A stretch of 41,729 nucleotides of DNA from an uncultured Eubacteriales bacterium (GTDB lineage Bacteria > Bacillota > Clostridia > Christensenellales > Aristaeellaceae), in assembly GCA_902790175.1 (NCBI GenBank), contig CADAQZ010000009.1, positions 1 through 41,729 on the forward strand, in the 5' to 3' direction. A program made the translations under genes and the position numbers. Shown in pieces: positions 2,933-40,877 of the stretch. The notes beneath the pieces were generated by a model. It saw nothing but the letters and a program-made list of their open reading frames with translations, was not told where the DNA came from and searched no databases. How positions within the stretch are numbered: position 1 is the stretch's first letter; every line of letters starts with the position of its first letter.

Positions 2933-3008
2933 TGGTGACCCATTGGAGATTCGAACTCCAGACACCCTGATTAAAAGTCAGGTGCTCTACCGACTGAGCT
3001 AATGGGTC
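2933..3008 (-). tRNA. tRNA-Lys (anticodon TTT)
   Basis: This is a 76-base cloverleaf with encoded CCA. The acceptor stem GACCCAT pairs with the 3' ATGGGTC, the D-loop reads AGCTCAGTCGGTAGAGC, the anticodon loop ACTTTTAATC carries TTT, and the T-arm contains GTTCGAATC. It is the last gene of the operon. Confidence 0.97.
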
Positions 3009-3012
3009 GCAT

Positions 3013-3087
3013 TGGCTGGGGCGGCAGGGGTCGAACCTGCGAATGCGGGAGTCAAAGTCCCGTGCCTTACCGCTTGGCTACGCCCCA
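3013..3087 (-). tRNA. tRNA-Gln (anticodon TTG)
   Basis: This is a 75-base cloverleaf with encoded CCA. The acceptor stem is TGGGGCG/CGCCCCA, the anticodon loop CTTTGAC gives TTG, and the T-loop is GTTCGACCC. It is separated from tRNA-Lys by only 4 bases. Confidence 0.97.
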
Positions 3088-3135
3088 TTGCACGCGCCTG
3101 CGCCGATTCAATGGGAATCACCGCTGTGTCGGATA

Positions 3136-3198
3136 ATGATTGTCGACGTGTTCCAACGGAACCCGCCGACCTGGAAAACGATCTGTCTTCCCAATCAT
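3136..3198 (-). repeat. 63-bp three-way-junction element, copy A
   Basis: The element is bounded by ATGATT (3136-3141) and its inverted copy AATCAT (3193-3198). Read on the minus strand it holds hairpin 1 (GGAAGAC...CGTTTTCC, one G-U pair) and hairpin 2 (GTCGGCG then GTTCC, 3-base loop GTT, GGAAC, CGTCGAC with one G-U pair). It lies inside the tRNA operon between tRNA-His and tRNA-Gln, on the tRNA strand in the orientation where the wobble pairs are allowed. A second 63-bp copy with seven differences lies at 40798-40860. The same strand also reads as an open 21-codon frame; three of the seven differences are synonymous. No known RNA family is recognised. Confidence 0.75.
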
Positions 3199-3210
3199 GT
3201 CCGGTTGAAG

Positions 3211-3288
3211 TGGGGTGGGTAGTGGGGCTCGAACCCACGACCTCCAGGGCCACAACCTGGCACTCTGACCAACTGAGCTATACCCACC
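3211..3288 (-). tRNA. tRNA-His (anticodon GTG)
   Basis: The acceptor stem is GTGGGTA/TACCCAC, with an encoded G(-1) at 3288 opposite the C discriminator at 3214, the histidine identity pair. The anticodon loop TTGTGGC gives GTG, the T-loop is GTTCGAGCC, and CCA is encoded. Confidence 0.96.
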
Positions 3289-3295
3289 ATAAACC

Positions 3296-3372
<77 letters not shown>

Positions 3373-19163: not shown

Positions 19164-19400
19164 GTGCGGTTTCCGCGCGTCCGTGGTTGAAAGTCGATGC
19201 CAGTCGCAGGCGAAACGATCCACGTAAGCCGGGAAAATCCCGGTGAGCATGGTGCGGCTTAGAAGTAAGTCCTGCCGATGATGTCGCATAGCGATAGGTC
19301 GAGAGGGGCAGTAGTGGGGAGGCAGAGTCCTTAGGAGCGAACCCTCCAGCAGGCGAGTGTGGGGTCAAAGACCAGGTCGGGCGCGGAAGCCGCATTTTTA
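19164..19400 (+). ncRNA. Structured noncoding RNA, probably raiA-type
   Basis: About 237 bases with its own promoter and no ORF. The ends close a 15-bp stem: GTGCGGTTTCCGCGC (19164-19178) with 19381-19395, followed by TTTTT, so the closing stem doubles as terminator. Inside are CGTGG/CCACG (19182-19186, 19220-19224), CGGGA/TCCCG (19230-19234, 19238-19242) within AAGC/GCTT, and CTGCC/GGCAG (19272-19276, 19307-19311) around TCGC/GCGA. Then come GGAGG/CCTCC (19318-19322, 19343-19347) and GGTC/GACC (19363-19366, 19370-19373). Size, stand-alone transcription and purine-rich multi-hairpin design fit the raiA RNA motif of Firmicutes, linked experimentally to sporulation and aggregation. The family name is from memory of its features, not a model search; the existence of a structured RNA is much surer. 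Confidence 0.72.
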
Positions 19401-40746: not shown

Positions 40747-40778
40747 AAAAAAACGGGTGCGAGCATTGCTCGCACCCG
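40747..40778 (-). terminator. Intrinsic terminator of pckA, also facing the alarmone synthetase
   Basis: CGGGTGCGAGC and GCTCGCACCCG form a strong stem (40754-40778). On the minus strand it is followed by seven T (40747-40753), an ideal pckA terminator 100 bases after its stop. On the plus strand the T-run is weaker and lies several bases later. Confidence 0.85.
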
Positions 40779-40784
40779 GTGTGC

Positions 40785-40870
40785 TTTTGGCTTGTGCATG
40801 ATTAGGAAAACGGAACGTTTTCCGGGTCGGCGGGTTCCGCAGGAACACGTCGACAATCATTTTGGCTTGT
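40785..40870. repeat. 11-bp direct repeats flanking element copy B
   Basis: TTTTGGCTTGT occurs at 40785-40795 and again at 40860-40870, immediately on each side of the 63-bp element, as a target-site duplication would. Copy A has no comparable perfect flanking repeat. Confidence 0.7.
40798..40860 (+). repeat. 63-bp three-way-junction element, copy B
   Basis: ATGATT (40798-40803) and AATCAT (40855-40860) close a structure holding GGAAAACG/CGTTTTCC (loop GAA), and GTCGGCG-GTTCC, loop GCA, GGAAC-CGTCGAC with one internal mismatch. It is the same length and layout as copy A (3136-3198); the seven differences fall mostly in loops, junctions or wobble-tolerant positions. It lies between the alarmone synthetase terminator and the pckA stop, so on the minus strand it would be in the pckA 3' untranslated region. 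The plus strand has the G-U-compatible orientation. Confidence 0.75.
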
Positions 40871-40877
40871 CCGCGCC

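Follow-up and report, generated by a model that had tools for sequence, protein, structure and literature searches.

Small structured repeats are common in bacteria. The sections of PMC3733652 considered here describe REPs as intergenic palindromes of 20–40 bp with GTAG or CGTC tags, present in many copies and thought to be non-autonomous mobile DNA. The element described below resembles the REP/REPIN and RAYT system of those sections in being short, intergenic, folded, present in many copies and often located downstream of genes, but differs from it as a 63-nt three-way junction with two hairpins and no constant GTAG tag. Neither a constant GTAG nor a constant CGTC tag was found in the family alignment, where CGTC occurred only as a variant of the hairpin 2 stem (CGTC or CGCC). 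Prokaryotic MITEs are described, in the part of PMC10969869 used here, with terminal inverted repeats and direct repeats. Like the Correia elements and other MITEs of that account, the present element is a small non-autonomous repeat near genes, and the sigma-70-like promoters and stable transcript folds of some Correia-type MITEs are counted as a further likeness. Unlike the MITEs described there, it has inverted ends of 4–6 bp, covarying internal hairpins and, in many copies, an exact start behind a -10 box. The streptococcal BOX elements are also modular, dispersed, folded and sometimes located in leaders, with a variable inner module; compared by description only, they differ in their boxA/B/C modules, and exact -10 placement is unmentioned in the portion of PMC3049150 considered.

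The two copies of the window and their fold

The window, i.e., the whole 41,729-nt stretch of DNA that was analysed (contig CADAQZ010000009.1 of an uncultured Eubacteriales bacterium), contains two copies of the element. Copies of the family fall into two main classes: A-type copies, such as the window copy at 40798, have an 11-nt leader and tend to follow terminator-like hairpins, while B-type copies start directly behind an extended -10 box, which usually stands again on the other side. The features of the window are as follows.

3136 to 3198, minus strand: element copy A, 63 nt; closing stem 3193–3198 with 3136–3141, hairpin 1 at 3173–3191, hairpin 2 at 3142–3170
40798 to 40860, plus strand: element copy B, 63 nt; closing stem 40798–40803 with 40855–40860, hairpin 1 at 40805–40823, hairpin 2 at 40826–40854
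40787 to 40797, plus strand: A-type leader of copy B, 11 nt, TTGGCTTGTGC
40861 to 40872, plus strand: TTTGGCTTGTCC, adjoining copy B on the right and leader-like, as read from the sequence
40755 to 40777, no strand assigned: terminator-like hairpin GGGTGCGAGC-ATT-GCTCGCACCC upstream of copy B, recognised by eye and followed by TTTT at 40785–40788
2933 to 3372, minus strand: tRNA cluster Arg-His-(copy A)-Gln-Lys, from ARAGORN and Rfam tRNA matches

The initial annotation had given two 63-nt copies at these coordinates, with ends ATGATT...AATCAT and seven differences, and all of this is exact; the differences lie at positions 7, 12, 15, 18, 27, 43 and 44. Its placement of copy A on the tRNA strand between tRNA-His and tRNA-Gln was reproduced with ARAGORN, which puts the two tRNAs at 3211–3287 and 3013–3087, respectively. 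Copy B is flanked by a RelA/SpoT-domain gene and PEPCK and lies 3' of the terminator-like hairpin; its leader recurs with small changes before other A-type copies, and its sequence was found by BLAST in seven 100% copies in the genome, copy B counted. The fold claimed for both copies, a three-way junction of a 6-bp closing stem and two hairpins, was likewise recovered, with -26.4 kcal/mol for copy A and -27.5 kcal/mol for copy B. The corresponding z values were -4.0 and -4.8, none of 200 shuffles being equally stable, and the opposite strand gave -1.3 and -4.1, respectively. Covariance model R1 scored copy A at 67.9 bits (E 2.8e-16) and copy B at 83.9 bits (E 7.5e-21).

In agreement with the view that no known RNA family is involved, Rfam 15 gave no match to the element at gathering thresholds across the window, none up to E 10 for copy A with short flanks, and none up to E 0.5 at the element coordinates in five relatives. 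Elsewhere in the window, positions 19170–19389 (plus strand) match raiA RNA (RF03072) strongly, with 197.3 bits against a gathering threshold of 101.3.

A dispersed family with covarying stems

The element had been reported as present twice, which holds within the window and not for the genome, where BLAST recovered 21 matches with copy A and 26 with copy B as the query, and covariance model R2 at least 35 (all 35 scored candidates matched). The two copies thus belong to a dispersed repeat family and are not a pair. With copy B as the query, BLAST matched 23 of 24 congeners and none of the 16 genomes of other genera in the order. A scan of the family with model R2 matched 20 of 150 genomes and 10 of 50 genera, including G001, which BLAST had missed, and G756, which looks like chance. 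In the order, model R1 matched 5 of 297 genomes: two of the same genus, G182 of the same family, and G163 and G214 with single matches. In the class, model R2 matched the own genome and gave one weak match among 391 genomes. Three likely chance matches, judged by reading to lie in coding or repetitive DNA (L302 in G214, L323 in G344 and L342 in G756), remain counted in these order, class and family tallies, and nearly all genomes compared are draft MAGs, the source genome being 87.8% complete. A sequence-pattern scan of named genomes yielded at least 107 loci, all titled uncultured Clostridiales, Clostridia or Christensenellaceae; among the matches listed, many came from deer, goat, sheep or rumen samples. 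A phage or plasmid origin was rejected: viral contigs contained no exact pattern match, and blastn found none in plasmids or phages.

The search with a covariance model and the covariation test on relatives, both proposed at the outset, gave more copies and strong covariation in all three stems. Across 62 family sequences, standard pairs occupied 96.3% of cells, and the covariation score of 0.220 exceeded that of the shuffles (0.075) and of slid partners (at most 0.030). Alignment A2 (71 distinct sequences), which was aligned to the model and so leans towards the model's structure, scored 0.397 versus 0.101 shuffled and at most 0.059 slid. Alignment A3, built from congeners and other genera with 29 distinct sequences, of which three are doubtful (L323, L342 and the fragment L339:1588–1614), scored 0.439 versus 0.111 and at most 0.060. 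In reading these controls, relatedness is kept in the slid control and is not removed by the shuffles. Neither outcome that was to count against the element, a mere two copies or stems without covariation, was obtained, given a family dispersed through the genome and its congeners and scores above both controls.

Most copies of the genus have GGAAAAC..GTTTTCC as hairpin 1; genus g23 has GGATTTTTGC..GCAAAAATCC or GGCGACCG..CGGTCGGCC there. The ends pair over 4–6 bp, with the closing-stem variants GATT/AATC, GTTT/AAAC and GATG/CATC. Hairpin 2 contains a mostly constant purine mismatch, which is G/A in 45 of the 62 sequences and A/G in 6; TTAG, GTCG/CGAC and the GG preceding hairpin 2 are likewise mostly constant. 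Compensatory changes support all three stems, the structure is maintained from genus to genus, and, as judged from these alignments, the fold is under selection. Stem covariation by itself cannot tell RNA from single-stranded DNA that is folded. The strand-specific G-U pairs invoked by the initial annotation proved partly sound: both copies do share a G-U pair (alignment A1, columns 33/71), while the strand preference is modest, since G.T cells exceed A.C cells by 27 to 14 (62 sequences, two outermost pairs omitted).

Two structural variants were also seen. At L129:3536–3692 and L142:7078–7241, in the same assembly (RUG10947), hairpin 2 carries an extension of about 90 nt or more that is alike at both loci. 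At L066:1277–1317 (G000 contig C2) a 41-bp near-perfect palindrome consists of the closing stem and hairpin 2, without hairpin 1.

Short folded repeats, together with a single Y1 transposase gene in the genome, would suit REP elements moved by a RAYT-type enzyme. That gene (PF01797; L050 1129–1914, G000 contig C44) has the palindrome-like GTGAAAAGAGAACCGTCCCCATTTCAC and its complement on its two flanks, which is a different repeat family, and the element core was not found within this locus; the arrangement thus departs from the REP/RAYT pairing. Moreover, Y1 matches occurred in 14 of 26 genomes, and the element-rich G019, G020 and G021, with 31, 25 and 21 BLAST copies, had none. A RAYT mobiliser is accordingly disfavoured, and we regard it as highly improbable. 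A composite transposon was also considered, and rejected, for contig C5, where 1.8 kb separates two identical copies; the frames between them read as ABC-transporter-like and solute-binding-like.

Empty sites, junctions and promoter boxes

It had been proposed that copy A, as an RNA, would be excised in the course of tRNA processing. This is not supported: the tRNA-operon copy is an insertion, absent from the same His-Gln spacer in 20 of 27 congener genomes searched, the operon being recovered too poorly for comparison in the other seven, sister G011 included. Furthermore, the remaining copies lie in many unrelated places, chiefly behind terminator-like hairpins or directly behind promoter -10 boxes. 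Copy B was absent from its place in five congener genomes and in G017, where the empty site reads TTTTGGGATTATCC. At L008/L274, the cleanest A-type empty site, with sister G011 lacking the element, the inserted piece comprises the 11-nt leader and the 63-mer, with no evident target duplication. L010/L268 is compatible with an empty site in G011, though noisier, and the junction of L002 compared with L270–L272 is not clean.

Another locus is the yicC promoter. Sister G011 has an exact empty site, TGATGTGGTATAATGACCGTGG, where G000 reads TGATGTGGTATAAT, element, ATGGTATAAT, GAACGTGG. Behind this TATAAT box the element occurs in 4 of 28 genomes (G000, G043, G019 and G005, the left end of the G005 array lying outside the sequence examined), each time as another subtype. 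In a single-gene tree these four genomes stand apart; the empty G011 is the 100/100 sister of G000, and G043 pairs, with weak support, with G024, which is also empty. Several gains at the yicC box explain this distribution more simply than many losses combined with subtype change. From the comparison of species, we infer that the family is mobile. The element is small, non-coding, dispersed and mobile, as MITEs are.

Placement was analysed on 143 copies, classed by text patterns into 46 A-type, 52 with a left -10 box (one with both marks), 5 with a right -10 box only and 41 in neither class (class groups of 45, 43, 41, 8, 5 and 1). For the placement counts, 31 of the 143 were omitted as inner array members, and the groups of 43, 35 and 35 sum to 113 rather than 112 because one copy has both marks; orthologous same-site copies (e.g., L103/L115 and L116/L133/L144) are counted separately, and these counts are biased by the pattern through which most loci were found. 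TANAAT ended two bases into the 63-mer in 34 of 112 outer-left copies and at each of the other offsets in no more than two; the TGn that marks an extended -10 was present in 32 of the 34, and there was a slight enrichment of -35 matches (mean 3.41 versus 2.79). Of 116 outer-right copies, 29 had TANAAT at a single fixed offset on the right, and 9 had a reverse -10 at one offset there, overlapping the common AATCATT end. Left-hand -10 placement was also seen in other genera (L331, L333, L336, L341, L343, L348 and L350). As for A-type copies, a hairpin with a T run lay within 75 nt upstream in 20 of 43, compared with 1 of 43 random places and 14 of 43 on the opposite strand, the latter control being high because such hairpins read both ways; 18 of the 20 end 14–22 nt before the element. 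Some other copies directly precede ribosome-binding sites.

Of the 43 copies with a -10 box both left and right, 39 were followed within 250 nt by an SD-preceded ORF. No gene class or pathway common to the downstream proteins was found among 20 scanned of 30 listed; 18 had a Pfam match (kinase, transketolase, Glx-tRNA synthetase, hydrogenase, Rrf2, amylase, macro domain and others) and two had none. At L071 the downstream gene encodes YicC. A T-box-like leader (70.4 bits, gathering threshold 93) lies directly behind an element array at L311:1769–1990 in G182.

The nearness of these ORFs and ribosome-binding sites, combined with stem covariation and the modest one-strand G.T excess, could suggest a functional structured RNA, a cis-acting leader or small RNA that spread in 5' untranslated regions and 3' ends, which comes near to the original idea. 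The start site lies at a spacing behind the -10 box such that the first bases after the box stay untranscribed. The covarying 5' half of the B-type closing stem falls between the -10 box and the expected start and would be missing from RNA made from that box, so that a covarying closing stem touching the -10 is hard to explain by such RNA. It points instead to a strand including the flank, either single-stranded DNA in transposition or RNA from further upstream. Together with the lack of a shared pathway among the downstream proteins and with copies private to species at several sites, this makes a functional RNA unlikely in our view.

The promoter box might itself be an 8–9 bp target-site duplication left by a conventional MITE that a DDE transposase moves. 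Repeats like TGGTATAAT do flank B-type copies on both sides, and some variant boxes are identical left and right (L139, L175), yet those of L182 and L176 differ between the sides, and the left-right match among single copies (13 of 18 versus 10.9 expected, P 0.054) is only suggestive. No duplication is evident at L008/L274, and a DDE enzyme would have no need of internal hairpins that covary. We consider this origin doubtful.

Another reading takes GGTATAAT as the crossover core of a cassette moved by site-specific recombination. This would account for the precise and repeated use of one site (the yicC promoter), for the core standing between array copies, and for arrays that mix subtypes with identical spacers (L165 and L181), but several arrays have unrelated spacers (GAACAT, GTCAATA, AAGGGGCCGTGG), and units of 70–85 bp are very short for double-stranded circles; such a cassette appears quite improbable. 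The mixed-subtype arrays with identical spacers point to recurrent insertion at a single site instead of simple duplication, and conversion between copies is a possible alternative source.

IS200/IS605-type elements transpose as a single strand, recognise hairpins and leave no target duplication. This mode would fit the A-type junction at L008. These elements differ from the present one in that no element end matched such an IS here, and one IS200-type copy (G002) lies inside an element array; more generally, an unsystematic look at IS ends turned up none that matched the element. The IS200-type copy on G002 contig C9 (L075) was inserted after ATGATT. An array beside Y1 fragments on G018 contig C53 (L080/L097), whose junction was seen in part, looks alike, and the element repeat may itself be an insertion target.

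Proposed mechanism and significance

Taken together, these sequences probably represent a new family of non-autonomous mobile repeats, with a fold that is under selection and would be recognised, by its structure, by an enzyme acting in trans. Such an enzyme would bind to the folded strand, either single-stranded DNA or an RNA copy, and a single-stranded intermediate is suggested by the covariation and the weak G.T excess (27 to 14). The folded strand would insert where DNA is opened or where insertion is harmless, and arrays would grow through repeated insertion at the same box. Insertion into a promoter would be tolerated, the -10 box remaining beside the gene; the unrelated downstream genes, some of them housekeeping by family name, together with a -10 box beside the gene, indicate that such tolerance is likely. 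On this reading, the window would contain two such landings, copy A within the tRNA operon and copy B in the interval from the RelA/SpoT-domain gene to PEPCK. The junctions of the A and B classes behave differently, and one mechanism must explain both; counted against a mobile family are the 41 of 143 copies in neither class and the five with a right -10 box only.

More tentatively, the element might use the melted -10 region of active promoters, as well as transcript ends, as single-stranded DNA exposed by transcription. The folded strand would be inserted right behind TGnTATAAT and the box left again behind it, so that genes stay on and arrays represent repeated hits. What is novel is the placement on the promoter box: searches of open-licence papers turned up no repeat family that is fixed to the exact end of an extended -10, recurs at one promoter across separate lineages and does so in several genera.

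If insertion uses DNA opened by RNA polymerase, the element would naturally report the opening of promoters and offer a testable case of transcription-coupled transposition. Otherwise, it would still give rise to duplicated promoters and to structured leaders in uncultured gut bacteria, and the covariance model built here detects it across the family.
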